A program made the translations under genes and the position numbers. From a virus, in the IMG/VR virus record IMGVR_UViG_3300029953_000079, positions 1 through 39,418 of that record: a DNA stretch of 39,418 bases. One strand, written 5' to 3'. The notes beneath the pieces were generated by a model that saw only the letters and a list, made by a program, of their open reading frames with translations, searched no databases and had not been told where the DNA came from. Below, one piece after another: positions 3,220-39,418 of the stretch. Position 1 is the stretch's first letter. The number at the start of each line of letters is the position of its first letter.

Positions 3220-3420
3220 TTAGCGCAGAACCTGCACGGGCACGATTTCAGACAAATTATCGGTCAGGCCAAATCTGATGCGATGCAGCTCGGCAGCGGT
3301 CCTGCTGTCGAATTCCGTCGGCTGTTCTACTTTGCGATAAAAGATACAGCCATGCAATTCAATGAATTCGATCGGCTTTCCGTGGACTTTGATGATATAC
3401 TTGGTCATATCGTGGTTCAT
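3220..3420 (-). CDS. Small early protein, unknown function
   Basis: The product has 66 residues (MNHDMTKYIIKVHGKPIEF...). I recognise no family. The start codon overlaps the stop of the upstream regulator as ATGA (3417-3420), so the two are translationally coupled. An internal ATG four codons in is an alternative start. The sequence reads as a compact alpha/beta protein with mixed charge. Its position between the regulator and the annealing protein suggests an early accessory role. Confidence 0.6.
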   Translation of the reverse strand: MNHDMTKYIIKVHGKPIEFIELHGCIFYRKVEQPTEFDSRTAAELHRIRFGLTDNLSEIVPVQVLR

Positions 3421-3608
3421 GACTTCGTGGATCGGCGGATTATTGCAATGGCGGCTACCTGCATGGGCTGGGCCGGGGCGGACCGACCGGATTCCCAGTT
3501 GCTGACGGTCCCTTGACTCACATCCAGCAGGGCGCCCGCGGCGTGCTGGTTTAAGCCCGCGTTCTTCCTGGCCTTGACCAAGGAGGCTCGAAATTGTTTT
3601 ACTCGCAT
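3417..3608 (-). CDS. Cro/CI-type helix-turn-helix regulator
   Basis: A 63-residue, single-domain XRE-family DNA-binding protein. The helix-turn-helix covers roughly residues 18-42: the first helix around NQHAAGALLDV and the recognition helix in SQGTVSNWESGR, where the Trp-Glu-Ser-Gly-Arg ending is typical of the family. The ATG at 3608 is preferred over an in-frame TTG at 3617. It is the first gene of the leftward early operon and lies just downstream of an A/T-rich promoter region with an inverted repeat, so self-control is likely. There is no oligomerisation or cleavage domain, which fits a Cro-like protein more than a full CI repressor. Confidence 0.8.
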   Translation of the reverse strand: MRVKQFRASLVKARKNAGLNQHAAGALLDVSQGTVSNWESGRSAPAQPMQVAAIAIIRRSTKS

Positions 3609-3650
3609 TGAAATCAATTTATTAAAAATGAATAATTTTGCAACTATTAT

Positions 3651-6700: not shown

Positions 6701-9644
6701 CGTCCTGCTTGAGCTTTTTCCAGTCTACCTCGGGCTCCGCGGGCGGTTCGTTGGCGGTGGCATCTTTGGCGAGGCGCAGCTTGGGTTTGGTTGCCTCACC
6801 CAGGGCCTGGCGCGCGCCGTCCTCGTCAAAATTTCCCGTGTGGTTCTGGCGAATGTGGTCAATCGCCGCGCTGATCGCGTCCGCCACCGTTCCACCAGCC
6901 CGGATGGCGGCTTGCGCCACGCTGACCGCCCGGTCCCACAAGTCAGCAGCGATGCCGAAGGCGTGAAGCTGGCCACCCTTGGCGATGCCGGTTTTTAGGG
7001 ATTCGAGGGAGTCGGCGATGGATCTGGCTTTGTCGCCGATGGATTTTTTAGTCTCTTCCGTGCCTAGCTTCATCACGCGCTCAAGTTCGCTACCAGGCTC
7101 CGCGTGCCCCTCTCGGTCGCCCTGCAAAAACTTCAAGGCCGCATCCTTCAACATTTGCCGGTTGGTCCCCGGCAAATCAAACCCGAACAGGCGCTTGAAC
7201 GCGGCGCGGGCCGCATCGAACACCTGGGCGAAAACTCCCCGGTTGGCGTCGCCTTTGACCAGCCGGGCGATAGCCGCTTCCTCCCGGATCGTCGCGGCGT
7301 CCACGGGGAGGCCCTGGGCGAGCCTTGTTTTACGCTCCGCTGCCATTTCCTCCGGTGTGACCAAATCACGCACCGCCTGCCACGCACGCTGCAAGGCGGG
7401 GTCATACCAGACACCGTGAAAGCCTTCCTCCAGGATCACCGCCTTGGCGCGTTCCGGCGTGCTGATTCGTGCGGCGTTGACGGTGATTTTGTTCCGGCCT
7501 TCGATTTGCGCTCCCCACGGGGCGGATTCATCACGGATTACGCGGACTCCGGACGGGAGTTCGCCTTTGGGGTCTGTGCCCATGGCGCTGTGAACGGCGG
7601 CGGTGGCGTTTTTCAGGTCGCTGGCCTTTTGAAAAGCGGGCTTCGCCCGGACGGACGCTTTCACCGGGCTTTCACCTGCGGTGTCTTCTGGGTTGGCTAA
7701 TTCGGCAACCTGTGGTGCGGATTTCAACGGGTTGGCATTCTTCGCCTGCAACTCGGCCAACCGGGCCGACTGCGCCTTGTTCAGACCAAACGCTTCCTGG
7801 ACAGTTTCGAGGGCGTCCTGTTCGGCGGCGTCACGCGATCGTTCCGCGATCGTTCCGCGATCCTTCCGCGATCCTTCCGCGATCGTTCCGCGATCGTTCC
7901 GCGATCCTTCCGCGATCGTTCCGCGATCGTTCCGCGATCCTTCCGCGATCGTTCCGCGATCGTTCCGCGATCCTTCCGCGATCGTTCCAGCCTCATCTGA
8001 TGGCGGTAAAATGGACAAAGGCTGCTGAAGCTTTGTCCCTTGGAACTGCTGTTGAGCTTCCGCCACGTCATCCGCCGTCACAGGCTTTACTTCGACTTCC
8101 CCGGATAGGCCGCTGGCCGCCATGCGGGCCTGCCGTTCGTTGGAAAAAAGGCCGTAAGGCTCGCCGTCCTGGGTCACGCCCCACTTAGTCGCCCCCTCAC
8201 CCGCCGCCGGCTCGCCCCCAACCACCATTGGAGGCGCGGCCACCACCGGTGCCGGCGTCGGTTCCGCCCCCTCGGCTGGTGCCTTGGCCTGGGGGTTAGG
8301 AAGAGAAAGGGAAGCTGCGGGGGATTCGAGTGGCTCCGAAGGCGTGCCATCATCTGCCGTCATTGACGGCGGTTTGACGGTTGACGGCTTGGCTGGCTGC
8401 ACCTGATTGGCGGTCATCTCCTTTTGGAGTGATGCCAAGTCAGCCAGCGTTACCGGCTTATCTGGCGTCGCGGCTGCCTTTTGGGCAATGGTGGGTTCTG
8501 CTGACGGGGTTCCCGTCGACGCCGCTTTGTCAGCAGACAGCGGTTTGGACTGGTCAGATAGTGCATTTTGTTGAACCGCATTTGCATTTTGTTCAATTTC
8601 CGGTGCATTTTGTTGGACCGCGTTGGGGTCCGCTTGCAAGTCCGCCATCATCCGCGCCACAATCGGGGGATACTTCACGCCGGCTGCTGTAGGCGCGGTC
8701 GGCTCGCCCTGGGGCACAACTTCATCCGCCGGGGCCTTGAAACCCCCACCAGCGGGCAGCGGGGGGGCAGCAGGCGGCATTTCTGGCGGTTGCTCGGCTT
8801 TCCCAAATTGGTGCCGATCACCCATTCCACCAAGCAAAAACATGCTCCCGACGTTCCCAACGGCGTCAATCAAGGCGTCTTGGCGCTGTTCGGGCGGCAA
8901 CTGGCTGATCGTGGCGATTTGGTCGGCTCCAATGAGACCAGCCGCCCCTCCGGCTCCGCCGAGTTTGTTGAGGACCGCCAAAGCAGCATCATTCGATACC
9001 CCCGCTTTGCTGGAGATGGCTTCCGTGATGGCCCCCGTATATTTCCCAACGGTGGGCAGCAGGGTCGCAATCACGGCCTGCTTGGGGTCAAATCCTTCGG
9101 GAGTTGATCCCCAAATGATTGGCGCAGCCTCAGGGATCGCCATATTGGCGGCCAGTTGGGGGACAGACTCCACGATCCCCTTGCCGGCCGCTACAATCGC
9201 CCGCTGGTAGGCTGGCATGGTGCGGATGGTGTCCTCAAGGGGAACATCCTGGCTGGCCTGCTGCGATTCGGCGTTCGACATCCCCGGCGGCAATGGGCTA
9301 AACTCTTCGGCGGTGTGCTCCATCGCCCGCGTGGGGGCCTCGTAAAGAAACTTCCCGGCCGCCTGAAAACCTTGGCCAATTCCGGCCGCTATCCGGCCTT
9401 CGGGAGTTTCTTGAAGTTGCTCCCATGTGGCCGCCCAGTTGCCACCGGCCTGTGGTGGTCCTCCTGCCGTGGTGGCGTGATTGAGAAGTACGTGCCGAAG
9501 GCTGCTCTCCGGGGTGATCGCGGGAAGGTCACCGCTCGGCGCGCGAAATCCGCCGCCGGAAATAACTTCGTCATCCGGCGCTCGAAAACCGCCGCCGGGC
9601 GCTGGGGCGTCCATCACTTCATCGTCTGGCGCTTTAAAGGGCAT
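3741..9644 (-). CDS. Giant virion-associated (DNA-ejection / polyvalent-type) protein
   Basis: The product has 1967 residues and is the last gene of the late operon, directly after two smaller ejection-type proteins. The N-terminus repeats FKAPDDEV/FRAPDDEV-like motifs. It is followed by an Ala/Pro/Gln-rich disordered stretch to about residue 640, including an 11-residue tandem repeat (GTIAEGSRNDR). Around residues 735-750 lies ILEEGFHG, which resembles the metal-binding helix of peptidase-like domains found in large phage polyvalent proteins, although the usual second His is not obvious. The remainder is long helical sequence with a short hydrophobic stretch near residues 1705-1730 (IVVQAAAMYALARVV). 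The likely role is an internal protein injected with the DNA. That role is inferred from size, position and composition. Confidence 0.65.
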   Translation of the reverse strand: MPFKAPDDEVMDAPAPGGGFRAPDDEVISGGGFRAPSGDLPAITPESSLRHVLLNHATTAGGPPQAGGNWAATWEQLQETPEGRIAAGIGQGFQAAGKFLYEAPTRAMEHTAEEFSPLPPGMSNAESQQASQDVPLEDTIRTMPAYQRAIVAAGKGIVESVPQLAANMAIPEAAPIIWGSTPEGFDPKQAVIATLLPTVGKYTGAITEAISSKAGVSNDAALAVLNKLGGAGGAAGLIGADQIATISQLPPEQRQDALIDAVGNVGSMFLLGGMGDRHQFGKAEQPPEMPPAAPPLPAGGGFKAPADEVVPQGEPTAPTAAGVKYPPIVARMMADLQADPNAVQQNAPEIEQNANAVQQNALSDQSKPLSADKAASTGTPSAEPTIAQKAAATPDKPVTLADLASLQKEMTANQVQPAKPSTVKPPSMTADDGTPSEPLESPAASLSLPNPQAKAPAEGAEPTPAPVVAAPPMVVGGEPAAGEGATKWGVTQDGEPYGLFSNERQARMAASGLSGEVEVKPVTADDVAEAQQQFQGTKLQQPLSILPPSDEAGTIAEGSRNDRGTIAEGSRNDRGTIAEGSRNDRGTIAEGSRKDRGTIAERSRDAAEQDALETVQEAFGLNKAQSARLAELQAKNANPLKSAPQVAELANPEDTAGESPVKASVRAKPAFQKASDLKNATAAVHSAMGTDPKGELPSGVRVIRDESAPWGAQIEGRNKITVNAARISTPERAKAVILEEGFHGVWYDPALQRAWQAVRDLVTPEEMAAERKTRLAQGLPVDAATIREEAAIARLVKGDANRGVFAQVFDAARAAFKRLFGFDLPGTNRQMLKDAALKFLQGDREGHAEPGSELERVMKLGTEETKKSIGDKARSIADSLESLKTGIAKGGQLHAFGIAADLWDRAVSVAQAAIRAGGTVADAISAAIDHIRQNHTGNFDEDGARQALGEATKPKLRLAKDATANEPPAEPEVDWKKLKQDAADANARSVAANEAIRNAQQEANPKDNLDVESHATAGKGGVTPEMQQERRDAQAAAMAAREKLLRSPGYIRSRIDEFAGVVKRKAAADAVGEPNPRTAARQEMDSYNDEFRQMPEGAFADAWKAAQEDGTLPKDQMMPVGRSLRDLTDKLEKSDIDSPKVPMSERMNIARAAANAIGDAKDAYQKAARGVRAAWAALKSGIYDPPISSHFREVMKDWFAADQQTGHETYRWIKAIESKVSNPVRRRAISAWVDANGDEGTLRAQRADLEAVAGGKHVPVWDAALKLTDGEKEIGRQIIADFETKLEDAKNVGMIDKGRENYGVPQIWKTPPKADESSAGKGSAGNFRAKLDPRDPFFSLQRETPSYFDGIMRGGEPKDMDVGKLVAVYNEAFHKNLSSRAAIWGLKDAKSADGTPVVRISGDAHYEVLPTGKKRLLVDATRRPGDAVTKDGRPYRAIDHWALKGWQYKGSDPHGNPVLVKGDFLVHPDHFQFLNNELNGTKWRQAEPGPVGPDGRPTMRRTPWGAAGHAALSVSSFLKNSKMALGMFHLFNVATHSVWNGVNPITKDFKLDMTNPEQAAGVRNGVELGFGSHRVDFEEGQTGAHGGLWAHVPGLGRVAGRMTDFIFKDVLPKMKMKNYLALNEANTKLYGKKLTPDQISEISAHQTNAAFGLQNYRLLGTSKAMMDFNRLICLAPDFLGSEFKQTAQAFTKYGGAQRRAIVVQAAAMYALARVVNASLNNGDSHWEPENALSVVYKGRAYSIRSLVADMFHMVSDPGAFMAGRLGPLPHTIADVITGRDMRFGTRIDTVARTGVGRAAERALRDTLGWLAPIGTTGFGPGAAKRGETPFGTLAAAQVGLSSRQYTPATQMYDAAAQFNRNNPDPKAQEYQANREAEVYQQSVYKGLDNLLQAGDSAAAQREYKALVAEGHTPAHIEARYQRESPFTGSADREAQFKAQLTDSQWAAYQQAIQDRAALKSKFDSLPK
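7835..7988. repeat. 11-bp minisatellite, 14 units, inside the giant virion gene
   Basis: Fourteen consecutive units of GCGATCSTTCC, in which the seventh base is mostly in the pattern G,G,C. The 11-bp unit is not a multiple of three, so each 33 bp (three units) encodes one 11-residue repeat, GTIAEGSRNDR, near residues 555-602 of the leftward protein. One triplet is irregular (units 3 and 4 are both the C form). This suggests slippage by single 11-bp units, which must have been compensated to keep the frame. Confidence 0.9.
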
Positions 9645-17373: not shown

Positions 17374-17963
17374 TTTTGGGATGGTGCGCCGGGAGGGCTG
17401 GAAGGAACATTCCCAGCCGCCGGGGCGGCTTCGTCCCCGGTCCTGGCAGACTGCCCGGCGTCAGCCAGAGGTTTACGGGCGTTGTACACCCAAATCCGCT
17501 TCAACAGCGGAGTCACGAGAAAATCAGACGGGCAAATGTCCCCGTCGTAGTAGTCCAAGCTGAACAGCGGCGCCTTCGCCGCTGTAAAAAACGCCGCGCC
17601 AAACTGAGAGCAAATAAACCCATGCGTCGGCACATTAATCAGGTAGAAACGTAGTAGATCGCCCCAATTATACGGCTGGCCGTCAACGGACTTGAACCAA
17701 ATCATGCCCTGCGCGAATTGTTCCGGCACGAAAGCGATGGGCCGTAGAACATAACGTAGACCATCCGCCCTAAAAAGATATTGCCCCACACCAGCACCAT
17801 TCCGGCTGGCGATGGACCTTAGACCTCCGGCGTATATCTCGACGTGCGATACATCAGACCATGTGCGAAATTGTATCAATCGAGATACGATGTCGCTTCC
17901 ACCGTATAGCAGCACATCTCCGGGTTGTAAATCCGGGAATGTGCTTAGATCAAGATGCTTCAT
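17370..17963 (-). CDS. Circularly permuted NlpC/P60 (YiiX-like) cysteine peptidase, likely endolysin
   Basis: The product has 197 residues. A GDVLLYGG motif at residues 15-22 is followed by SHVEIYAG with the candidate catalytic His40, and by FICSQF with candidate Cys118. His before Cys is the order of the permuted NlpC/P60 group (YiiX-like). YNWGDLLRF (about residues 98-106) is also typical of that group. The tail of 35 residues is Pro/Ala-rich. It lies directly downstream of a lipoprotein and two small membrane proteins, overlapping by ATGA, which makes a lysis cassette. The likely substrate is peptidoglycan cross-links, but members acting on other amide or ester bonds exist. Confidence 0.7.
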   Translation of the reverse strand: MKHLDLSTFPDLQPGDVLLYGGSDIVSRLIQFRTWSDVSHVEIYAGGLRSIASRNGAGVGQYLFRADGLRYVLRPIAFVPEQFAQGMIWFKSVDGQPYNWGDLLRFYLINVPTHGFICSQFGAAFFTAAKAPLFSLDYYDGDICPSDFLVTPLLKRIWVYNARKPLADAGQSARTGDEAAPAAGNVPSSPPGAPSQK

Positions 17964-28773: not shown

Positions 28774-30360
28774 TTACGCCCAGCCGGCTGTGTTTGAGGT
28801 TTTCTTTTCCTGCTTGCCAAAATTGTGCCACGCGAACGTCCCGCGCTCGGGGAGGTCGTTTTTCTTCGGCCCCTCAGCCGATACCATCCGGTCCATGCCC
28901 ATGCCCAACATCGCCAGGGCTGCCACCAAATCGTCGTGTTTTCCCGGAAACGCCAACAATTGGTTTTCGGCCTCCGGCCATTGGGGCCAGTCCGACGGCC
29001 AAAAAACTTCCCCGCGGGCCATCATCCCGCGGATGGAGGAGGACCGAGCGACCAGGTCCCGGCTTTCCGAGATCGAATCGTTCAGCGGGAAATAGCAGTG
29101 CTCCTCATTCATGCGCCGTCGAATGAACGGCTCCAGGCTGCCGGAGATTGCATCCCGCGCGGCCCACCATTGGGCAACTTGCCGGCGCTTGGCAATCGCG
29201 AACATGGCATCGACAATTTTGTCCGTGGTCGCCTGCTGCCACCAGGTGTCAGACAGCACGTAGATCGCTCCCGTCGGGTCAATTCCAACCACCAGCAGAC
29301 AGGTTGCATCGTTGCGCTCTCTCGCGCGATAGGCGTGGTCGGACGACACGTAAATCCGCAGTTGCTTCGGCAATTCGGAGGCTTTGTACGTTTTGAGCCA
29401 CGACTTTCGGAACCATGTCCCCTCCTGTGGCCTCGGGTGGCACTGGTACTGAGTTTGAAAATCCTCCCGAATAATCTCGCTCGCGTTATTGCGCATGTCC
29501 GCGAAAAACTCGCGCCCGAATTTTTGCGGCCAAAGCGCGGCGTCCTTCGGCCGGCTCAGCGGATCGCCGGGCCCCTCGGACAGCGCCGGGAGGCGAATGC
29601 GAGTCCATCGCGCGGACTCTTTGGCGTCGTGGTGGGGGTTGGTCGGGTCAAAAATTCTGCCTTGGACGTCATCCTCGTTGCGCCGGCTGCCGATCATGAC
29701 GATGGGACAAGATTCATCGTTCAGGCGGCTCTTGCAATCCACGTTGTAGGCTCTCCATTTCGCGTTGCGCGTAACCTCGCTGGTAGCATCCTCAGAATTT
29801 TTGAACAGGTCATCCACCAGCAACCAGTGACCACCCACCCCGGCCCCAAGCCCACCGCAGCCGGAAAATGTGATGGTCCCGCCGGCGACCGATTGCAGCC
29901 GGTCAGACGCTCTGGAATCGGACCGCAGCGCGGCACCCGGCTCGTCCCCGAACACCGTTTGGAATCCCGGTCCTTGCCAGTAGTCACGCACGTCCCTTCC
30001 GTGCTCCGTCGCGAGTGTGTCTGTGTGGGTCAAGACGATGCCGCTTTTGTAGGGAGCCCGACCCATCATCCAGCAGGAGAACTGCCTAATCGCAATTTCC
30101 GATTTTCCATGGCGCGGGGGCACCTCGATCTCCAGCCGGTTGATTTCACCTCGGGCAACGCGCTCCAGCGCATCGGCAATCAGCCGGTGGTGAGCAACCC
30201 ACTCATACCGAGAGAGTCGGGAGTTGAACCTGTCACCAGGGTGTGGTGTGTTCAGCCGCGCGAACTCCACCAGGTCATGTCGCGCGAGCTCGGCGGCAAC
30301 AATGCGCTCCTCGGTCAGGGCCAATTGACGGGCGGTCAGCATGAGCACCATCCAGCGCAT
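28774..30360 (-). CDS. Terminase large subunit (ATPase and nuclease)
   Basis: The product has 528 residues. The packaging ATPase has a Walker A-type loop VPPRHGKSE at residues 80-88 and a Walker B LLVDDLF at 180-186. The RNase H-like nuclease domain begins near residue 337 (VSSDHAYRARERND, Asp341), and a later HDDLVAAL supplies a C-terminal acidic pair. The start codon ATG at 30360 overlaps the upstream stop (TGATG); a GTG one codon earlier is possible. It drives ATP-dependent DNA translocation through the portal. Both motor and nuclease appear intact. Confidence 0.92.
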   Translation of the reverse strand: MRWMVLMLTARQLALTEERIVAAELARHDLVEFARLNTPHPGDRFNSRLSRYEWVAHHRLIADALERVARGEINRLEIEVPPRHGKSEIAIRQFSCWMMGRAPYKSGIVLTHTDTLATEHGRDVRDYWQGPGFQTVFGDEPGAALRSDSRASDRLQSVAGGTITFSGCGGLGAGVGGHWLLVDDLFKNSEDATSEVTRNAKWRAYNVDCKSRLNDESCPIVMIGSRRNEDDVQGRIFDPTNPHHDAKESARWTRIRLPALSEGPGDPLSRPKDAALWPQKFGREFFADMRNNASEIIREDFQTQYQCHPRPQEGTWFRKSWLKTYKASELPKQLRIYVSSDHAYRARERNDATCLLVVGIDPTGAIYVLSDTWWQQATTDKIVDAMFAIAKRRQVAQWWAARDAISGSLEPFIRRRMNEEHCYFPLNDSISESRDLVARSSSIRGMMARGEVFWPSDWPQWPEAENQLLAFPGKHDDLVAALAMLGMGMDRMVSAEGPKKNDLPERGTFAWHNFGKQEKKTSNTAGWA

Positions 30361-30620
30361 CACTCCATCGGGTCAGCAGCGTTTGGGGTGCCGAGGGTAG
30401 GCGCGTAAAAGCCGGGCTGGCCTGCGGCCTGGGCGCGGGCAACCTTGTCGGGACGCATGAGCGGTTGGATCGCCCTGTCGGGTTTGTTCGCGGCCAGGGC
30501 GGCGTGGTGGCTGGCCAGCGCGGTGAAAATCTTAGCCAGGTTGCCGTGGGAAAGGGCTGGTGCCGTCGGCGTCGGGGCCGTCACGCGGCCGGAGGGAATT
30601 TTGGAGGATGGAATTTTCAT
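30360..30620 (-). CDS. Small protein between terminase subunits, unknown
   Basis: The product has 86 residues, Pro/Ala-rich and basic at the N-terminus (MKIPSSKIPSGRVTAPTPT), with a short helical middle (NLAKIFTALASHHAALAANK). No family is recognised. Both ends overlap neighbours (ATGA upstream, TGATG downstream), so it is translated in step with the terminase genes and may assist packaging. Confidence 0.55.
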   Translation of the reverse strand: MKIPSSKIPSGRVTAPTPTAPALSHGNLAKIFTALASHHAALAANKPDRAIQPLMRPDKVARAQAAGQPGFYAPTLGTPNAADPME

Positions 30621-31335: not shown

Positions 31336-31574
31336 ACGGCAAAAATTGCCCAATTTGGCGACAATGTCAAGCGCCGCCGCTGTGCGGGTCGTGGGGAACC
31401 CTCGCGCGCGCGCGCTCCCCGGCGATGGCGATGGCGATGGCGATGGCGATGGCGATGGAGGCAGGAATCCGCAGGATTCCGCAGGATTCCGCAGGAATCC
31501 GCAGGATTCCGCTGCGGATTGTTCCACGTGGAACAATTTACCTTTTTTGTGTCGTTAATCGCACGCCGGCGCAT
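31332..31574 (-). CDS. Possible leader frame upstream of small terminase
   Basis: The product would have 80 residues, starting MRRRAINDTKKVN. In favour: the ATG has the A/T-rich context used elsewhere (AATAAAAATG), it is the first such start after the late promoter, and its stop overlaps the small-terminase GTG as GTGA. Against: most of it translates simple repeats (HRHRHRHRHR from GGCGAT units, NPADSCGI repeats) and the parS palindrome. It may be a translated leader rather than a functional protein. Confidence 0.35.
   Translation of the reverse strand: MRRRAINDTKKVNCSTWNNPQRNPADSCGILRNPADSCLHRHRHRHRHRHRRGARAREGSPRPAQRRRLTLSPNWAIFAV
31393..31518. repeat. Dispersed composite repeat, copy 1
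   Basis: The order is GGGGAACCCTCGCGCGCG, a CTCCCC hairpin arm, six perfect copies of GGCGAT (31421-31456), GGAG, five copies of GCAGGAWTCC (31461-31510), then GCTGCGGA. A copy with the same order, the same six GGCGAT units but three GCAGGAWTCC units lies at 36563-36665. This copy abuts the parS palindrome and lies in the leader of the small-terminase gene. Confidence 0.9.
31518..31537. promoter_or_regulatory. parS-like centromere site (perfect 20-bp palindrome)
   Basis: ATTGTTCCACGTGGAACAAT is a perfect palindrome. Its central 16 bases, TGTTCCACGTGGAACA (31520-31535), match the bacterial chromosomal parS consensus TGTTTCACGTGAAACA with only the two symmetric changes T to C and A to G, which are seen in natural parS sites. 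Its translation in one frame gives FHVEQ, the tell-tale of parS within coding frames. No parA or parB gene is visible, so the site would bind host ParB. It lies between the late promoter and the small terminase gene. Confidence 0.8.
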
Positions 31575-31661: not shown

Positions 31662-31693
31662 ATTATAGTTTGTAAGTCGTTGATTATCAACGA
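31662..31693 (-). promoter_or_regulatory. Late-operon promoter with overlapping palindromic operator
   Basis: Reading leftward, TTGATA (31690-31685), a 17-bp spacer and a perfect TATAAT (31667-31662) form a strong sigma70-type promoter pointing at the terminase genes. The -35 box lies within TCGTTGATTATCAACGA (31677-31693), a perfect inverted repeat with an 8-bp arm and one central base. Such an arrangement is expected for a repressor operator blocking polymerase. The repeat differs from the one at the early promoter, so the binding protein is not obvious. Confidence 0.65.
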
Positions 31694-32049
31694 GATAAAG
31701 TTGCAGATAATTGTGGACACATAAATAGAATCATGCGATAGTACAGGTGTCGGGGGGCACAACCTCCGGCGGATGAGGGCGGTGAGGCAAGGGCCGAATC
31801 CCGCAGATGTCAGAATGCAGACGGTGTGGCGAACTCTATGGGCCACGGTAAATAATCCATCGGTAATTTTCGGGTAAGCCCCCGCGTGAAAGGGGGGCCG
31901 GATTTGCAAGAACTGCAAAACACCGGGACGAGACGAAAATTGCGGTAATGCGGCATACGAAAGAATGAATCTTTCGTATACGGTGACAAGCCCGAAAAAA
32001 CGCAGAGTCAAAAACCAAAAAGCCGGGCGACCGGCGGAAAGAAAATAAT
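31694..32049 (+). other. Structured leader/intergenic region before the rightward operon
   Basis: About 350 bases without a convincing gene. Hairpins visible on the + strand include GCCCCC/GGGGGC around 31877-31897, a perfect 10-bp stem ATACGAAAGA/TCTTTCGTAT with a 5-base loop (31955-31979), and the GNRA-type hairpin at 32022-32044 just before the first gene. The first 150 bases are G-rich. No known riboswitch or tRNA was recognised. I could not place a convincing rightward promoter; TTGCAG (31701) and TAGAAT (31726) are 19 bp apart, which is too long to trust. Confidence 0.45.
32022..32044 (+). repeat. Leader hairpin element, copy 1 (GCCGG-GCGA-CCGGC)
   Basis: GCCGGGCGACCGGCGGAAAG and the next three bases occur identically at 32022-32044, 34169-34191 and 34499-34521. 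Each is a 5-bp GC stem with a GCGA (GNRA) tetraloop, followed by a purine-rich GGAAAGAAA run. At the first two copies an ATG follows within about 10 bases, so the purine run can serve as the ribosome site. The third copy precedes a decayed frame. Confidence 0.9.
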
Positions 32050-32457
32050 ATGAGAAGCTCACAAGAAATGGTGGAATTGGTCCGCGCCGGCGGCGCGGAT
32101 GTTCGGAAAATCTACGGTGGCGAAAGCTACCGTAGCGGAGGGGTGCTGGTGGTGCACCCTGTCGGTTACTGGGACCAACCGGTCCCGGTACGGGTGGAGA
32201 CGGCCCCCGAGAAAGCGTGGGACGGCACTGGCTACGACGGCCGCGGCCGTCGTTGGGACATCATCCGGCTGGTGCCGGATGCGGCCGGGATGGTCCCGGT
32301 GACCCGCGGCCAGTGGTCGAAACTAGATGAATCCGACCGGGCGGTGGTCGGCGGCGGGGGCTCCTCCAGGTCGGAGGATGGAGCGGTTCATTTCGGCCGA
32401 CCCGGGGCCGACCGGAAAAGCGACATTTCCGGCCTGCTGGCCGGACTGACCGGGTGA
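32050..32457 (+). CDS. Short paralogue of the Csx16-domain protein (domain lost)
   Basis: The product has 135 residues and is the first gene of the rightward operon. It differs at only 11 of 134 positions from the N-terminal part of the 229-residue protein at 32840. The domain itself (SSQEMVELVRAGGADVRK ... HPVGYWDQPVPVRVE ... GTGYDGRGRRWD) is unrecognised. After the TGA at 32455 the DNA still reads PVVVTKM and a stop, which is the first strand and the last residues of the paralogue's Csx16 domain. The 252 bp between them are missing, flanked by TGGTCAC. So this is a real expressed-looking gene with a trimmed C-terminus. Confidence 0.7.
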   Translation: MRSSQEMVELVRAGGADVRKIYGGESYRSGGVLVVHPVGYWDQPVPVRVETAPEKAWDGTGYDGRGRRWDIIRLVPDAAGMVPVTRGQWSKLDESDRAVVGGGGSSRSEDGAVHFGRPGADRKSDISGLLAGLTG

Positions 32458-32497
32458 TCGAGCACGCCGGTGGTGGTCACAAAGATGTGACCCGCCG

Positions 32498-32577
32498 GCC
32501 GGGAGCGCATCCCGGCTTTCACTCCCGCCCCCAAAAAACAAGGGGGCGGAACTGAGAGAATAAACAAAAAAACAAAC
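32498..32577 (+). repeat. Intergenic hairpin pair between rightward genes
   Basis: GCCGGGA/TCCCGGC around GCGCA is followed by CCGCCCCC/GGGGGCGG around an A-rich loop, then the segment GAACTGAGAGAATAAACAAA. The first hairpin recurs at 33537-33555. The second has relatives at 33561-33588 and 34433-34461 in which the loop is replaced by a CCGGCTTGAGCCGG stem. The A-rich segment recurs at 34462-34493. These look like mobile or recombining intergenic modules. Confidence 0.75.
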
Positions 32578-32584
32578 CTACAAT

Positions 32585-32806
32585 ATGAAAATCTGCGCAG
32601 TATACAACACGGACGGAATTATGGAATTCAACCTGAGGCCAGCCGGCCCGATGCTGGACGGTCGGCAACTGCCGGTCGGGCGGGTAACGTTTGATGGAGT
32701 CCACGCTAAAATGCGCGGACTTGGTGAGTTCCGGCTTTATGCATCGGACAAATTCGGGGAATTCAGCCAACGAACCAGGCTGAATATTTTCCCCGTGCAA
32801 GCCTAA
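32585..32806 (+). CDS. Small protein, unknown (rightward operon)
   Basis: The product has 73 residues (MKICAVYNTDGIMEFNLRPA...). It is mostly beta-type with a basic C-terminus. No family is recognised. It lies between the two paralogues. The stop TAA is followed at once by a CCCCTCCCGG-type hairpin. The upstream sequence is A-rich with no clear SD. Confidence 0.5.
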   Translation: MKICAVYNTDGIMEFNLRPAGPMLDGRQLPVGRVTFDGVHAKMRGLGEFRLYASDKFGEFSQRTRLNIFPVQA

Positions 32807-32839
32807 CCCCCCTCCCGGCTGACGCCGGGGAATAAAAAT

Positions 32840-33529
32840 ATGAGAAGCTCAAAAGAAATGGTGGAATTGGTCCGCGCCGCCGGCGCGGATGTTCGGAAGA
32901 TCTCCGGTGGCACTAGCTACCGGAGCGGAGGGGTGATGGTGGTGCACCCACTCGGTTACTGGGACCAACCGGTCCCGGTCCGAGTGGAGACGGCCCCCGA
33001 GGGGGCGTGGGACGGAACTGGTTACGACGGCCGGGGCCGTCATTGGGACATCATCCGGCTGGTGCCGGATGCGGCCGGGATGGTCCCGGTAACCCGGGGC
33101 CAGTGGTCGGAACTGGCTGAATCCGACCGGGCGGTGGTCGGCGGCGGGGGCTCCTCCAAGTCGGAGGATGGAGCGGTTCATTTCGGCCGGCCGGGGGCCG
33201 ACCGGAAAAGCGACATTTCCGGCCTGCTGGCCGGACTCACCATCACCGTCCCGCCGGTGGTGGTCACGCGGCACCCAGCTTTGGTCGCTCTCTTGCGGGA
33301 GCGCGGGCTGGTGTCCGGCGACTGCCGGGTGATAGATCACGCTGGCCCGGATGACGTCCGGGGGCAGGACGTAATCGGAGTCCTGCCGCTGTCCCTGGCC
33401 GCGCTGGCCCGGACAGTCACAGAGATTCCCCTGAATCTCACCCCCGAGATGCGGGGGAAGGAGTTGGACCTGGAGACGCTCCGGCGCATTGCCGGAGAAG
33501 AGGTGAAATACATGGTCACAGAGATGTGA
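32840..33529 (+). CDS. Fusion protein with C-terminal Csx16-like (ring-nuclease family) domain
   Basis: The product has 229 residues. Residues 1-134 are the unknown domain shared with the gene at 32050. Residues 138-226 match the Csx16 family (VVA1548-type CRISPR-associated proteins): VVVTRHPALVALL (Arg144-His145), VIDHAGPDDVRGQDVIGVLP with LSLAA after it (Gly180, Leu182-Pro183), and IPLNLTPEMRGKEL (Arg205-Gly206-Lys207-Glu208-Leu209). Csx16 has been grouped with CARF-like ring nucleases that remove cyclic oligoadenylate in type III CRISPR immunity. A phage copy would therefore be a plausible anti-CRISPR. I match the family pattern from memory; activity and ligand are inference. The start follows a CCCGGC-TGAC-GCCGGG hairpin. 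Confidence 0.7.
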   Translation: MRSSKEMVELVRAAGADVRKISGGTSYRSGGVMVVHPLGYWDQPVPVRVETAPEGAWDGTGYDGRGRHWDIIRLVPDAAGMVPVTRGQWSELAESDRAVVGGGGSSKSEDGAVHFGRPGADRKSDISGLLAGLTITVPPVVVTRHPALVALLRERGLVSGDCRVIDHAGPDDVRGQDVIGVLPLSLAALARTVTEIPLNLTPEMRGKELDLETLRRIAGEEVKYMVTEM

Positions 33530-33566
33530 CCCGCCCGCCGGGAGCGCATCCCGGCTTTCACTCCCG

Positions 33567-33708
33567 CCCCCGGCTTGAGCCGGAGGCGGAACTGAAAACG
33601 CGGGCAACCGCCGGCCCCGGCTTGAGCCGGAGGCGGAACTGAAAACGCGGGCAACCGCCGGCCCCGGCTTGAGCCGGAGGCGGAACTGAAAACGCGGGCA
33701 ACCGCCGG
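33567..33708 (+). repeat. Three 47-bp tandem repeats with CCGGCTTGAGCCGG hairpins
   Basis: Three consecutive 47-bp units lie between the Csx16-fusion gene and the next gene. Each contains the near-palindrome CCGGCTTGAGCCGG, then AGGCGGAACTGAAAACGCGG and GCAACCGCCG. They are followed by a single CCCGG-CCGAA-CCGGG hairpin and an A-rich start region. Non-coding; the same hairpin recurs singly at 34440. Confidence 0.9.
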
Positions 33709-33741
33709 CCCCGGCCGAACCGGGAAAACGAAAGAAAAAAT

Positions 33742-34146
33742 ATGACAAAGCAACTATTCGAAGCACTCAGGTCGTGGACAGCGATGGTCGAATGCTGGCT
33801 GGAAAAACAGCATAACACCACGGAAGATCAGGACATAATCCTAAAGCGGATCAATAACTTCGGTGTAGGTATACGACTACGAAGTCCAGAGGCTGGGAGA
33901 TTCCACCAATTGCCAGATGGTGATTTTCTTGAATGGACACAAACTCCACCAAGTCAATCCGGTGATTACTGGTGGTGGAATGAAGATGGCAGGCCGATTC
34001 TTATTGCTATCGGAATTTCGGGGGGCACTGGGGAATGCTTCGCCCAAATAGGCCAATACGGATGGACGGTAGCGCAACCCGTGAAGGAAATGGGCGGGTA
34101 TTGGATGCTGGAGGAAGGCCCGTCATTACCTGTCGTGAAGGGATAG
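33742..34146 (+). CDS. Unknown protein (rightward operon)
   Basis: The product has 134 residues. There is a helical N-terminus with LEKQHNTTEDQDIILKRI, then a Trp-rich middle (PSQSGDYWWWNEDGRP) and ISGGTGECFAQIG. The repeated Trp/Gly-aromatic pattern recalls small phage proteins of DUF551-like style, but I cannot assign it. It lies downstream of three tandem hairpin repeats with the start context AAAGAAAAAATATG. Base composition is less GC-rich than the flanking repeats, as if the gene was acquired. Confidence 0.5.
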   Translation: MTKQLFEALRSWTAMVECWLEKQHNTTEDQDIILKRINNFGVGIRLRSPEAGRFHQLPDGDFLEWTQTPPSQSGDYWWWNEDGRPILIAIGISGGTGECFAQIGQYGWTVAQPVKEMGGYWMLEEGPSLPVVKG

Positions 34147-34195
34147 TCACCTAACCAAATAACCAACAGCCGGGCGACCGGCGGAAAGAAAAAAT

Positions 34196-34402
34196 ATGAA
34201 CAATACAAAAATCGAATGTGAAAACGATCGCCGGGCTTTTCGCGAAAAAATGGAAAAAATGATCCGCTTCGCCGATGGGTACTACTACATCGGCGGCTGC
34301 CAGCCAGCCACGAGCACCGGGCGCTATGCGACACGAGAGGCGGCAATAAGGTACCAGATGGACTGCTTTGCCCGCGAACTAACCCCGCCGTTTGCGGCTT
34401 AA
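34196..34402 (+). CDS. Small protein, unknown (rightward operon)
   Basis: The product has 68 residues, with a charged N-terminal helix (ENDRRAFREKMEKMIRFADG) followed by YYYIGGCQPATSTGRYATRE. No family is recognised. It is preceded by the second copy of the GNRA-type leader hairpin (34169-34191) and followed directly by TAACCCCTCCCGG and a GGCCGGT/ACCGGCC hairpin. Confidence 0.5.
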   Translation: MNNTKIECENDRRAFREKMEKMIRFADGYYYIGGCQPATSTGRYATREAAIRYQMDCFARELTPPFAA

Positions 34403-34524
34403 CCCCTCCCGGCCGGTTAGTCACCGGCCTTTCACTCCCGCCCCCGGCTTGAGCCGGAGGCGGAACTGAGAGAATAAACAAAAAAAACAAACCAAAAAGC
34501 CGGGCGACCGGCGGAAAGAAATAG

Positions 34525-34587
34525 ACAGAAAAAGTTGTTTTGCGCGTTGCGCACCGCGTTTACCACTGGTGCCCGCGATTCAACTAA
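34525..34587 (+). pseudogene. Decayed cassette remnant
   Basis: The third copy of the leader hairpin (34499-34521) is followed not by an ATG but by ATAGACAGAAAAAGTTG. An open stretch of 20 codons (reading EKVVLRVAHRVYHWCPRFN at its end) then stops at a TAA followed by the usual CCCCTCCCGG hairpin. The flanks are those of a complete gene cassette, but start and body are missing, which suggests deletion of a small gene. The call is inferred from layout only. Confidence 0.35.
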
Positions 34588-34620
34588 CCCCCCTCCCGGT
34601 TCGCCGGGGAATATACAATT

Positions 34621-34890
34621 ATGAAAAAAATAACAATCGGCAACGAGTCCAGCCGTGATTTATCACAACATTCCGTCGGCGCCGCGGACGGGGAGGTCTG
34701 GCTGTGGGGACCGGAAACCAACAATTATGGATCGCGTCAGTGGGGGGTGAATGAGGGTCGTTACGGGAGCGCGTACAGCACGGCCACATTCTGGAGCCGG
34801 ACCGAAGCGGTTGCCGAAGTTCGCCGGTTGCGCAACCAACGGGCGGGTTCCAAATCCGTCGAAAATTTCATAGCCTGTTCCGAATATTAA
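34621..34890 (+). CDS. Small protein, unknown (rightward operon)
   Basis: The product has 89 residues (MKKITIGNESSRDLSQ...), with a Gly/Trp-rich middle (DGEVWLWGPETNNYGSRQWG) and a basic helix (EAVAEVRRLRNQRAG). No family is recognised. Upstream is a CCCGG-TTCG-CCGGG hairpin (UUCG-type loop); directly after the stop is another CCCCTCCCGG hairpin, so it is a typical cassette of this operon. Confidence 0.5.
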   Translation: MKKITIGNESSRDLSQHSVGAADGEVWLWGPETNNYGSRQWGVNEGRYGSAYSTATFWSRTEAVAEVRRLRNQRAGSKSVENFIACSEY

Positions 34891-34927
34891 CCCCTCCCGG
34901 CCGAACCGGGAAATAAGAAATAAAAAT

Positions 34928-35215
34928 ATGAGAGTTGTTTCGAATACTAAAAAGTTGCGGGTGGAGAAGACGCAAAAAGGCGATTTGTATTTGTGCTTGT
35001 CGAGGGATCAGGTCCGAACGATGAGCCGTGCGGTTGCGAGAGTCCCGAACTCCTCATCCGTGATCATAACGATCATTCCGCGTTTAATGGAGTTCGAAAA
35101 CGGCGACTTGCAAATTCCTAGTTTGGAGTTTCTGCGAGAGTTTGTGGTGAGCTGCGAGTGCGAGCGCCAGTTGCAAAGGAACATGCACGCTTTTCCTGAT
35201 GGGGGGCTCGCGTGA
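34928..35215 (+). CDS. Small protein, unknown (rightward operon)
   Basis: The product has 95 residues. There is a basic N-terminus (NTKKLRVEKTQKGDLYLCLS), then RDQVRTMSRAVARVP, a hydrophobic strand SSVIITIIPRL, and a helical end. No family is recognised. The start context is AATAAAAATATG after a CCCGG-CCGAA-CCGGG hairpin. The last codons overlap the next gene's GTG start as GTGA. Confidence 0.5.
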   Translation: MRVVSNTKKLRVEKTQKGDLYLCLSRDQVRTMSRAVARVPNSSSVIITIIPRLMEFENGDLQIPSLEFLREFVVSCECERQLQRNMHAFPDGGLA

Positions 35216-35559
35216 GAGCTACAAATTACGGCAGCCTCTGTCTCTACTTCACGGGCGAATACCTGCGACCCGCGACGAGAGCCGAGTGGATGGACAGCAT
35301 GGAAGCAGAGACCCGCAATATTGGGAGCGGGTCAGGTGTTATAAACATAGGCGGCCAATCCGTCTATGTGGTCGGGGGCCCGCGACCACCACGGAAACGC
35401 GGACGGCCACCATTGGATGGCCTAGCTGCTGGGGAGATCGTAAAGCTGCGGGTTACCCGCAAGCGGAAAGCCGCGTGGGTATCCCACGCGCAGACCAAGC
35501 ACCAGACCTTGACGCAGTCCATAACGGATGTGATGGACAGTGCTGTGGAGGGTGGCTAA
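35212..35559 (+). CDS. Small AT-hook-like DNA-binding protein candidate
   Basis: The product has 115 residues with a GTG start coupled to the previous stop. The N-terminal half (FTGEYLRPATRAEWMDSMEA, GVINIGGQSVYVVGG) resembles small phage/plasmid proteins I have seen but cannot name. Residues about 58-68 read PPRKRGRPPL, an AT-hook core (Arg-Gly-Arg-Pro), followed by a basic region. It is the last gene of the operon and converges with the helicase-loader gene, the two stop codons overlapping. Confidence 0.5.
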   Translation: MRATNYGSLCLYFTGEYLRPATRAEWMDSMEAETRNIGSGSGVINIGGQSVYVVGGPRPPRKRGRPPLDGLAAGEIVKLRVTRKRKAAWVSHAQTKHQTLTQSITDVMDSAVEGG

Positions 35560-36131
35560 ATCGTCGCGTAGCTGGGGACGGCAGTTAAATCGACCACGAC
35601 GGACGTCCTCAGCAACCGGTCCTCGATGCGTTTGTCAAATCGATCACCCCATCGGTCGGCAGCGATGTTCGTTGTCACAAGGGTAAATTTACGTCCTCGT
35701 CGGCTCAGAATCTGGCACGCGGCATCGGCGCACAGTTTCCAAGGGTCCGTCTCGGCCCCTAGGTCATCCCACAACAGGAGGTCAGAGGCAACGGCGTCGG
35801 TAATCGGCCAGTCCTGTTTACGTGCTAATTCAGTCGAAATCGTCGGCCAAAACATGTATTGCACAGAGGGGATTTTGTTGATCCAGTCGCCGTTGGTTTG
35901 ACTGCGTTTTTGATGTGCCAGCGTGGCCGCTCCACGGGCGAAGTGTTCGACGGCTTTGAGTAAATGAGTTTTGCCACAGCCCGAATTACCAACCAAAATC
36001 AATAAAACTCGGTCGGTATTCGCTCCAAAAATCCAGTCTCGGCAAAAAAATTGAACTTCATCCGCCGCTTTTTTCAGGTCTGGATGGTGTAGTCGCAGGC
36101 GCAGAAATTTTTCCTGCCAGGTTTCAGACAT
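35556..36131 (-). CDS. DnaC/IstB-like helicase loader ATPase
   Basis: The product has 191 residues from the ATG at 36131, which has an AAGGAGG SD nine to ten bases upstream inside the preceding gene. A longer frame exists, but its extra part lies in that gene. AAA+ motifs: Walker A GNSGCGKT (48-55), Walker B LLLWDD (118-123), sensor 1 LVTTN (151-155) and an arginine-rich RIEDRLLR (168-175). It should load the host replicative helicase at the phage origin together with the initiator upstream. It is the last gene of the early operon. Confidence 0.85.
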   Translation of the reverse strand: MSETWQEKFLRLRLHHPDLKKAADEVQFFCRDWIFGANTDRVLLILVGNSGCGKTHLLKAVEHFARGAATLAHQKRSQTNGDWINKIPSVQYMFWPTISTELARKQDWPITDAVASDLLLWDDLGAETDPWKLCADAACQILSRRGRKFTLVTTNIAADRWGDRFDKRIEDRLLRTSVVVDLTAVPSYATI

Positions 36132-37020
36132 TTTCTGGTCCTCCTTGTGCGGCTCGTTCCGCGGCATAGCGGGTCTCCCGTTCGGAGGCTCGACGTTTGA
36201 TAACATCGGCGGTGGTAGCCTGTCCGGGAGGAGGTTTGCACACGCCGAAATTTCTAGGATTTGGTTTTTCACCATTGCGGTTAGCGATTCCATGCTTGCC
36301 CCTTTCCCTGTCGGTCTGGATTTGCCGCTCGAGGGCTGCGCGCCAGTCGACGACCGGATTGCGGCCCCACATCCATCCGGCCGCCGAGAGAGCCAGCCAG
36401 GCACCGCGAGCTTCGGGCTCGGTGTAGGTGGCGCCACTCGCTCGGGAATCGGCCAGCCATTTTTGACAATCCTCAAATTTTGGATGGAAAATTCCGCCGC
36501 CGGCGTCCTGGGGGGGAGGTGCCGGGGGCGCGGTCATTTGCTGCCATTTGCTGTCATTTGTCGGGGAACCCTCGCGCGCGCTCCCCGGCGATGGCGATGG
36601 CGATGGCGATGGCGATGGCGATGGAGGCAGGAATCCGCAGGAATCCGCAGGATTCCGCTGCGGAATGACAGTTTTTGACTCTTTTGGCGGGTCTGGCCAC
36701 CTACTTCGCCCCCGCGCACGTTCTTGCCATTGAATGACTTGTAAATATTTCCGACCGTCAACATCGTAAAAGAAAACGAGTCTGGCGTCGGCAAGTTGCT
36801 GGCAAAGCGCTGCGGATTCCTGCGGATTGACAGCAAGTTGCGGGTTTTGCTCATTCCAGACCGCAAAAGCCTCCGCCCAAAGGACTGAATTTCGCCCGTC
36901 GTGACGACCATAATCATCGACCTGGGTGAGGATGGAAATGTAGAGCCGGCAAGCAACATGTGAGACCGCATTCCAGCGCGGGCTGGTGCGGATTCCTGGG
37001 CGTAAAAAACGTTGGGGCAT
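36124..37020 (-). CDS. Phage replication initiator-like protein (winged-helix)
   Basis: The product has 298 residues. The N-terminal domain (RWNAVSHVACRLYISILTQV, DDYGRH, QQLADARLVFFYDVDGRKYLQVIQWQ, then RPDP-like WPDPP) is the typical phage initiator/DnaD-like N-terminal pattern. A Ser/Pro low-complexity linker at about residues 125-155 is encoded by copy 2 of the dispersed repeat. The C-terminal part has a Trp-rich helix (ARGAWLALSAAGWMWGRNP) and a basic tail. It is paired with the helicase loader; the genes overlap by eight bases. The origin is not identified. Confidence 0.7.
   Translation of the reverse strand: MPQRFLRPGIRTSPRWNAVSHVACRLYISILTQVDDYGRHDGRNSVLWAEAFAVWNEQNPQLAVNPQESAALCQQLADARLVFFYDVDGRKYLQVIQWQERARGRSRWPDPPKESKTVIPQRNPADSCGFLPPSPSPSPSPSPSPGSAREGSPTNDSKWQQMTAPPAPPPQDAGGGIFHPKFEDCQKWLADSRASGATYTEPEARGAWLALSAAGWMWGRNPVVDWRAALERQIQTDRERGKHGIANRNGEKPNPRNFGVCKPPPGQATTADVIKRRASERETRYAAERAAQGGPENV
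36563..36665. repeat. Dispersed composite repeat, copy 2
   Basis: Same order as copy 1 at 31393: GGGGAACCCTCGCGCGCG, CTCCCC, six GGCGAT units (36587-36622), GGAG, three GCAGGAWTCC units and GCTGCGGA. It is in frame inside the replication initiator gene, where it encodes the SPSPSPSP linker. Unlike copy 1 it is not followed by parS. Confidence 0.9.
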
Positions 37021-38764: not shown

Positions 38765-39418
38765 TTAAACCTCTTCCGTTTTAGCGTCCGTTTGGATGAC
38801 CGGTTGGGACTCATCGAACCTCTCGACCACACCCCCGGACTGGGTGATGACCGGGGCGGACGTGTCCCGCGTCCTGACCTTGCCACCGGTCATGTGGATG
38901 ACCGGGGCGGACGTGTCGCACGTCACGACCTTGCCACCGGTCATGTGGATGACCGGGGCGGACGTGTCGCACGTCACGACCTCACCCCCGGTCATGGTGA
39001 TGACCGGGGCGGACGTTTCCCGCGTCCTGACCTCACCCCCGGTCATGGTGATGACGGGGACGGACGTGTCCCACGTCCTGACCTCACCCCCGGTCATGGT
39101 GATGACGGGGACGGACGTGTCCCACGTCCAGACCACGCCCCCGGACTGGGTGATGACCGGCGCGGACGTGTCGTACGTCACGACCCAGCCACCGGACTGG
39201 TGGATGACCGGGGCGGACGTGTCGCACGTCACGACCTCACCCCCGGTCATGGTGATGACCGGGGCGGACGTGTCGTACGTCACGACCTCACCCCCGGTCA
39301 TGGTGATGACGGGGACGGACGTTTCCCACGTCCTGACCTCGCCCCCGGTCATGGTGATGACGACCCCCACACCCGTGCCGTGGACATCCACATGGTCACC
39401 ATGGCCGACAGTATAATG
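38765..39418 (-). CDS. 51-bp-repeat protein A (5' end wraps to 1-62)
   Basis: With the wrapped 5' end this is a 226-residue protein: the same unique N-terminus as protein B, then ten 17-residue units and a degenerate last one ending VVERFDESQPVIQTDAKTEE. It has unit types not found in B (GGKV forms) and lacks others, so the arrays have diverged or been reshuffled. Because its C-terminus is unique and not borrowed from the exonuclease, A is probably the original gene and B a duplicate. Unknown function; predicted repetitive beta fold. Confidence 0.6.
   Translation of the reverse strand, partial: HYTVGHGDHVDVHGTGVGVVITMTGGEVRTWETSVPVITMTGGEVVTYDTSAPVITMTGGEVVTCDTSAPVIHQSGGWVVTYDTSAPVITQSGGVVWTWDTSVPVITMTGGEVRTWDTSVPVITMTGGEVRTRETSAPVITMTGGEVVTCDTSAPVIHMTGGKVVTCDTSAPVIHMTGGKVRTRDTSAPVITQSGGVVERFDESQPVIQTDAKTEEV
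38826..39370 (-). repeat. 51-bp tandem repeat array (array A)
   Basis: About ten units of the same 51-bp repeat as array B, with variants GACTGGGTGATGACC and GTCATGTGGATGACC at the variable positions. No unique spacers. Collapse or expansion of this array in the assembly is possible. Confidence 0.9.
39384..39418. repeat. Terminal overlap: window end equals window start
   Basis: These 35 bases are identical to positions 1-35. Joining the ends after removing one copy gives a molecule of 39383 bp and restores one uninterrupted leftward frame: start codon at 60-62, stop at 38765-38767, 681 nt, divisible by three. The natural reading is a circular or circularly permuted genome rather than a linear fragment. 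The overlap lies inside a larger 194-bp block that also occurs at 935-1128, so the join is repeat-mediated and the number of intervening copies is not certain. Confidence 0.85.

Follow-up and report, generated by a model that had tools for sequence, protein, structure and literature searches.

Short C(UUCG)G hairpins, reportedly very stable, lie between genes of phage T4. In cluster K mycobacteriophages, repeats named SAS/ESAS lie just before the starts of many genes from different families; about half are described as having an inverted repeat directly upstream, and their function is described as unknown (PMC3203893). The promoter early stem-loop (PeSL) cassettes of T4-type phages are stem-loops that recur between genes and to which the shuffling of genes between phages is attributed (PMC4503421). 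In this work, we analyzed the 39,418-base virus record IMGVR_UViG_3300029953_000079 (this whole stretch is hereafter called the window) and found a rightward operon of small genes with GC-rich hairpins as their frames, for which SAS/ESAS (at gene starts) and PeSL (in shuffling) are the nearest described counterparts. We marginally favor the interpretation that these hairpins serve in the RNA as elements of insulation and stability and, in addition, provide homology for recombination.

The resemblance to each of these systems is partial. As with SAS/ESAS in the extract cited, a repeated element or inverted repeat sits next to the starts of genes from unrelated families. However, the window has a different sequence and adds stop-side hairpins, C modules (described below), and a ribozyme candidate, and its hairpins span lineages with few common genes, whereas the extract places SAS/ESAS within one cluster. 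The 13-bp SAS sequence GGGATAGGAGCCC has two matches in the window at up to two mismatches (1.04 expected), none of them in the operon. As expected of PeSL, the type A and type B hairpins stand beside differing genes in different phages; PeSL are promoter-terminator motifs, whereas the gaps of the window have no promoter- or terminator-like site on the + strand. The T4 hairpins are likewise short, stable, and located between phage genes, but here a G-C pair closes the TTCG loop, and the window shows no excess of CTTCGG (28 occurrences vs. 25.6 expected). One narrow literature search on phage intergenic hairpins associated with early genes found no paper, and we make no wider claim that such hairpins are unpublished.

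An earlier note on this DNA had proposed that nearly every gap of the operon holds hairpins of three families, and both parts are borne out. Defining hairpins as perfect GC-rich stems of at least 5 pairs with loops of 3–9, we found at least one in each of the seven gaps between 32008 and 34927. The 15 hairpins in these 718 nt (20.9 per kb, compared with 2.5 per kb elsewhere) exceed the mean of 2.8 and the maximum of 8 in 1,000 dinucleotide shuffles; with a 47-nt tandem array collapsed, 13 hairpins stand against a mean of 1.9 and a maximum of 7. No perfect GC hairpin was found in 455 nt of gaps checked in the minus-strand module. Type A comprises three identical 23-bp copies (at 32022, 34169, and 34499) with the GNRA loop GCGA followed by GGAAAGAAA; its 19-bp core occurs three times in the window at up to three mismatches (0.04 expected), and no copy lies outside the gaps. 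Type B is a TAA followed by CCCCTCCCGG...CCGGG; three copies occur, whose loops are TGAC, TTCG, and CCGAA. Type C comprises three CACTCCCGCCCC modules, the middle one running on into the 47-nt tandem array (3.2 copies). Some details of the earlier note required correction. Type A had been placed just before starts, yet an ATG follows only two of the three copies, the third preceding an 18-codon remnant without ATG; CCGGCTTGAGCCGG, which had been assigned to the C modules, is present in two of three, the remaining one having an A-rich apex; and the feature begins not at 32020 but farther upstream, at the candidate ribozyme (31942). The hairpin-bounded gene array is thus real and non-randomly placed. 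Its features are as follows:

31942–32013, + strand: candidate twister ribozyme of the type P1 arrangement, without stem P1 (Rfam RF03160)
32022–32044, + strand: type A start hairpin ahead of gene 1
32050–32457, + strand: gene 1, 135 aa, paralog of gene 3 (by nucleotide identity) without the Csx16 domain
32498–32516, + strand: gene 1 stop-side hairpin, 40 nt past the present stop; matches the hairpin after gene 3 (97% over 59 nt)
32522–32555, + strand: C module with the A-rich apex
32585–32806, + strand: gene 2, 73 aa, no family; the only start without a hairpin 10–17 nt upstream
32811–32830, + strand: type B hairpin, loop TGAC, between the gene 2 stop and the gene 3 start
32840–33529, + strand: gene 3, 229 aa, Csx16 domain at residues 141–226, candidate cA4 ring nuclease
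33537–33555, + strand: gene 3 stop-side hairpin, 7 nt past the stop
33561–33715, + strand: C module continuing as the 47-nt tandem array (3.2 copies), every unit with CCGGCTTGAGCCGG and GCGG-GCAA-CCGC
33710–33724, + strand: start hairpin, loop CCGAA, 17 nt ahead of gene 4
33742–34146, + strand: gene 4, 134 aa, no family
34169–34191, + strand: type A start hairpin ahead of gene 5
34196–34402, + strand: gene 5, 68 aa, no family
34411–34429, + strand: gene 5 stop-side hairpin
34435–34469, + strand: C module
34499–34521, + strand: type A hairpin with no ATG after it
34524–34587, + strand: cassette gene remnant, an 18-codon open frame without ATG that ends in TAA ahead of a type B hairpin
34592–34609, + strand: type B hairpin, loop TTCG
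34621–34890, + strand: gene 6, 89 aa, no family
34893–34911, + strand: type B hairpin, loop CCGAA
34928–35215, + strand: gene 7, 95 aa, no family; overlaps the next frame, with no hairpin beyond

According to the interpretation that we favor, portable RNA stem-loops would frame the small genes of an early phage operon (we infer "early" from position and small gene size only), with a start hairpin 10–17 nt ahead of the ATG, then an A-rich leader, and a stop hairpin right behind the stop codon that is often extended by a C module. Acting in the mRNA, the hairpins would block folding between adjacent genes, such that each start stays open, and would shield ends made by processing; any gene placed in a frame would then be expressed. 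The twister-like ribozyme would cut the leader 103 nt ahead of the first ATG and leave a 5′-hydroxyl end before the first hairpin. The likeness of the frames may also provide the homology by which the genes in between are duplicated, lost, or exchanged.

More than one line of evidence points to action at the RNA level, in keeping with the shared post-transcriptional control that the earlier note had offered as one possibility. The distance from hairpin end to ATG is 10, 12, 13, 14, 16, or 17 nt at six of the seven window starts, and 10, 12, and 13 nt in a second phage (described below). From stop codon to hairpin, the distance is 4–8 nt in five cases (genes 2, 3, 5, and 6, and the remnant, with 7 nt), and all hairpin copies are oriented with transcription. 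When the gene 5 stop-side hairpin is compared with those of genes 1 and 3, three of seven pairs are altered on both sides with pairing intact, and the stretch downstream is identical to its counterpart at genes 1 and 3. These paired changes, seen in two sequence types only, are no more than suggestive. On the + strand, the gaps contain no sigma-70-like promoter site, although that model may not be the host's, and no terminator-like site; the closest promoter-like sites lie upstream of the operon (31684–31742), with one more within gene 4. A candidate ribozyme adjoins the first hairpin. Furthermore, the seven operon starts have a mean predicted openness of 0.83 from −10 to +2, compared with 0.54 at 18 ATG starts on the minus strand (Mann-Whitney p 0.0018, from rounded values); from −18 to −11, the averages are alike (0.54 in the operon and 0.53 in the comparison set).

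Several observations weigh against this interpretation. The 18 comparison starts belong to open reading frames that we chose ourselves. The A-rich leaders, not the hairpins, may be behind the openness near the ATG. From −18 to −11, openness is only 0.25–0.49 at the starts 32050, 32840, 34196, and 34621, where the hairpins lower it; therefore, type B may restrain rather than help initiation. No start hairpin lies within 17 nt of gene 2, two genes break the stop-side spacing (gene 1 with 40 nt and gene 4 with 22 nt), and the type A copies, being identical, give no covariation. As for sharing between phages, only two independent lineages carry the hairpins, which makes thin evidence for mobility of the frames.

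The evidence for exchange comes from within the window and from the second lineage, and in both respects it agrees with the other possibility raised in the earlier note, namely, exchange of genes at the hairpins. Within the window, the similarity between genes 1 and 3 starts just 3′ of the hairpins (type A fronts gene 1 and type B fronts gene 3), and a 3′ flank is common to both genes. The C modules are mosaic: the head of C1 is as in C3 and its tail as in C5, and the apex of C3 equals that of C5. At 34499–34587, type A and type B frames remain around the 18-codon open remnant. As judged from these alignments, the frames are shuffled against the genes, a pattern to be expected if genes were swapped, duplicated, and decayed at the frames.

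Outside the window, three other viral records (L005, G001, and G003) contain exact type A. L005 is nearly the window itself (99.98% identical over 8250 bases), and G001 and G003 represent one lineage (100% identical over the 10,496 bases of their shared stretch) in which two A and two B copies lie amid a run of small genes unrelated to the window cassettes. When the G001/G003 sequence (compared as L119, L311, and L312) was searched with the window proteins, matches were limited to a 184-aa protein (37% identity), a 66-aa frame at 3417–3617 (41%), part of the 1967-aa protein (46% over 78 aa), and several short segments. The window terminase had no match in this sequence, and neither did the cassette genes beyond the hairpin sequence itself; by this comparison, therefore, the hairpins are common to both lineages and the cassette genes are not. 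Among the approximately 300 loci compared, more than one start hairpin was found only in these two lineages. Loosened hairpin patterns matched 93, 10, 11, 11, and 14 stretches in the viral collection; in motif scans, the matches outside the two lineages are single and scattered and were judged to be chance, and L083 and L101, with one match to each of two loose types, were dropped on the ground that these lie at least 7.9 kb apart. Apart from near-identical copies, the terminase relatives have approximately 40% identity or less, which left no close relatives for a comparison of gene order.

Two details of L119 may be added. At 9506–9532, the end of an open frame contains a type B hairpin: CAA replaces the expected TAA, and the frame stops behind the hairpin. 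At approximately 8815–8845, inspection by eye reveals a long GC hairpin (CGCCGGGC...GCCCGGCG) after the stop of the gene that precedes the first type A; it resembles the stop-side hairpins of the window.

It is possible, if on the unlikely side, that the hairpins are mainly recombination substrates, i.e., boundary repeats for small-gene exchange with little effect on expression, similar to the PeSL of T4. Such a role would explain the same A and B repeats next to unrelated genes in two lineages, the near-identical paralogs 1 and 3 with differing 5′ frames, the mosaic C modules, the decayed cassette at 34499–34587 with both frames remaining, and the internal deletions of gene 1 relative to gene 3. 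However, plain homology needs neither hairpins nor a fixed distance to ATG or stop, nor a single orientation or pairing-preserving stem changes, and type A offers only about 23–38 bp of homology. The orientation and the ATG spacing do not suggest an integron cassette array, although no search was aimed at an integrase or attC sites.

Type B could instead act as a translational coupling switch, in which its 3′ arm hides a GGGGA ahead of the next start and a ribosome ending at the TAA 4–8 nt upstream opens the hairpin. The position of type B between a TAA and the next ATG in all three window copies would suit this, as would the −18 to −11 openness of 0.25, 0.27, and 0.58 at the starts 32840, 34621, and 34928. 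We nevertheless regard such a switch as improbable, given that most other genes of this phage appear by eye to have no clear Shine-Dalgarno sequence, such that a hidden GGGGA may not matter, and that type A leaves its GGAAAG uncovered. Recognition of the hairpins, as RNA or DNA, by a single regulator of phage or host that co-controls the genes would account for the uniform type A with its GNRA loop in both lineages, but the freely varying loops and stems of types B and C offer no single recognition sequence and no candidate binder was found among the scanned proteins, which makes this explanation quite improbable. A host-wide or selfish repeat of the REP or MITE type invading the phage would account for the repetition, the palindromes, and the presence in two phages, but it is very improbable in view of the lack of type A matches in 84,980 GTDB species genomes (pattern slightly loosened), in 387 genomes of the phylum of L198 (two mismatches), and in eight other genomes (three mismatches), although the host may not be among these, and of the absence of copies in the window outside the gaps. 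Among database phages (50,697 records), the operon region had no DNA-level match, and when a 44-base query containing one type A copy was used, the phage matches were all weak and partial.

Regarding the cargo of the frames, the earlier note had spoken of anti-host cassettes, a description that finds support in one gene only. Residues 141–226 of gene 3 correspond to Csx16 (Pfam PF09652, 53 bits vs. a cutoff of 25) and also match the PADLOC Csx16 models (6e-14); the score against NCBIfam TIGR02620 (20.9 bits) is under the cutoff of 46.35. This domain is 44–48% identical to Csx16 proteins of Deinococcota plasmids and 25% identical to an archaeal one. According to the extract of PMC12409355, Csx16 degrades cA4 and was found in two of 28,114 phage genomes; thus, phage-borne Csx16 is already known, though rare. 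Gene 3 differs from the Csx16 ring nucleases of PF09652 with which it shares this domain in having a fused N-terminal domain of approximately 135 aa, which has no family match and stands alone as gene 1. We met no description of a fusion of Csx16 to an N-terminal domain that also occurs alone, and no search was aimed at such a fusion. From its domain content, gene 3 is likely a blocker of a bacterial immune signal and possibly a type III anti-CRISPR. No tblastn match to gene 3 was found in the database phages. A structure prediction was unusable (mean pLDDT 33.9), and in a sequence search against solved structures, designed ankyrin-repeat proteins were the only matches, all of them weak.

The identity between genes 1 and 3 is 91% over 437 nt. 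In their shared part, dN/dS is 0.30 over 132 codons (dS 0.156), which suggests that this part is under selection. Gene 1 has no Csx16 part; traces of it at the gene end, as direct repeats D12 and D17, indicate that gene 1 arose with internal deletions relative to gene 3. Genes 1, 2, and 4–7 have no convincing family match among Pfam, NCBIfam, and PADLOC profiles.

The candidate ribozyme (31942–32013) lies immediately upstream of the first hairpin and matches the twister-P1 model RF03160 at 36.2 bits, with E-values of 2.2e-5 (all families, 4.2 kb), 2.1e-4 (whole window), and 5.0e-8 (RF03160 alone, record). The score is below the Rfam gathering score of 67.2, and the runner-up site in the record reaches 13.6 bits. 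In 6.5 Mb of sequence, counting both strands, a strict descriptor modeled on this site matched only the site itself and copies of it. None of 115 bacterial genomes gave a match to the twister model at E ≤ 0.01 under stricter filters, a weak control given that nothing scored anywhere. Compared with type P1 twisters, the site has the conserved core (UAA ... GC ... CGGU..CAAGCCCG ... GAG, with one conserved U changed to A), a fully paired P2, and the P3, P4, and L4 core. In an alignment read by eye, the pseudoknot T1 (L4 with L1) is GAC/GUC rather than the consensus CCC/GGG, changes on both sides that keep the pairing. Stem P1 is absent, with four pairs unformed; the extract of a review describes P1 as dispensable for twister cleavage (PMC5408937). 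The low score may be explained in part by the model leaving pseudoknots unscored. We consider the site a candidate self-cleaving twister-type ribozyme, for which cleavage is predicted between 31946 and 31947. In bacteria, twister and hammerhead ribozymes are reported to be enriched in the vicinity of certain genes, with the strongest enrichment near genes related to Mu-like phages (PMC10085705). No comparable match was found in the second phage (best 16.2 bits, on the other strand and in a different place), and L119 had no Rfam family at E 2. The 201-nt leader ahead of the ribozyme has no clear structure (z −1.56). Of the other Rfam matches, an osmY-like one at 17564 was examined and set aside, and those to HIV, HCV, and miRNA models were judged to be chance. 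If the assignment is true, a natural twister without P1 that heads a phage operon would offer a direct test of the role of self-cleaving ribozymes in phage mRNAs.

Taken further, the locus might represent a mobile RNA framing system for counter-defense genes: a kit of start and stop hairpins common to phages with few shared genes, headed in one of them by a P1-less twister, that makes inserted small genes expressible and allows phages to trade anti-defense genes such as a ring nuclease through recombination at these frames. We consider a system of this scope unlikely. Should the frames prove to be portable units of expression, they would provide a sequence handle for finding small anti-defense genes, between hairpins, in uncultured phages, and would explain how phages swap tiny genes without loss of expression.

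The operon belongs to a rightward run of small genes (32050–35588) located between leftward terminase genes (the large subunit at 28774–30363 and a candidate small subunit) and a leftward DnaC-like loader gene (35556–36476). A direct repeat of approximately 100 bases (31393–31492 and 36563–36658, 95% identical), which contains tandem units GGCGAT and GCAGGAWTCC, flanks the operon and the DnaC-like gene. The record ends (1–35 and 39384–39418) are identical, and therefore the genome is probably circular or repeat-ended. Coding-compatible 51-base tandem repeats occur at both record ends (119–980 and 38824–39361), and an 11-base tandem repeat with 14 copies, the unit not being a multiple of three, lies at 7834–7988 inside the leftward 1967-aa frame.

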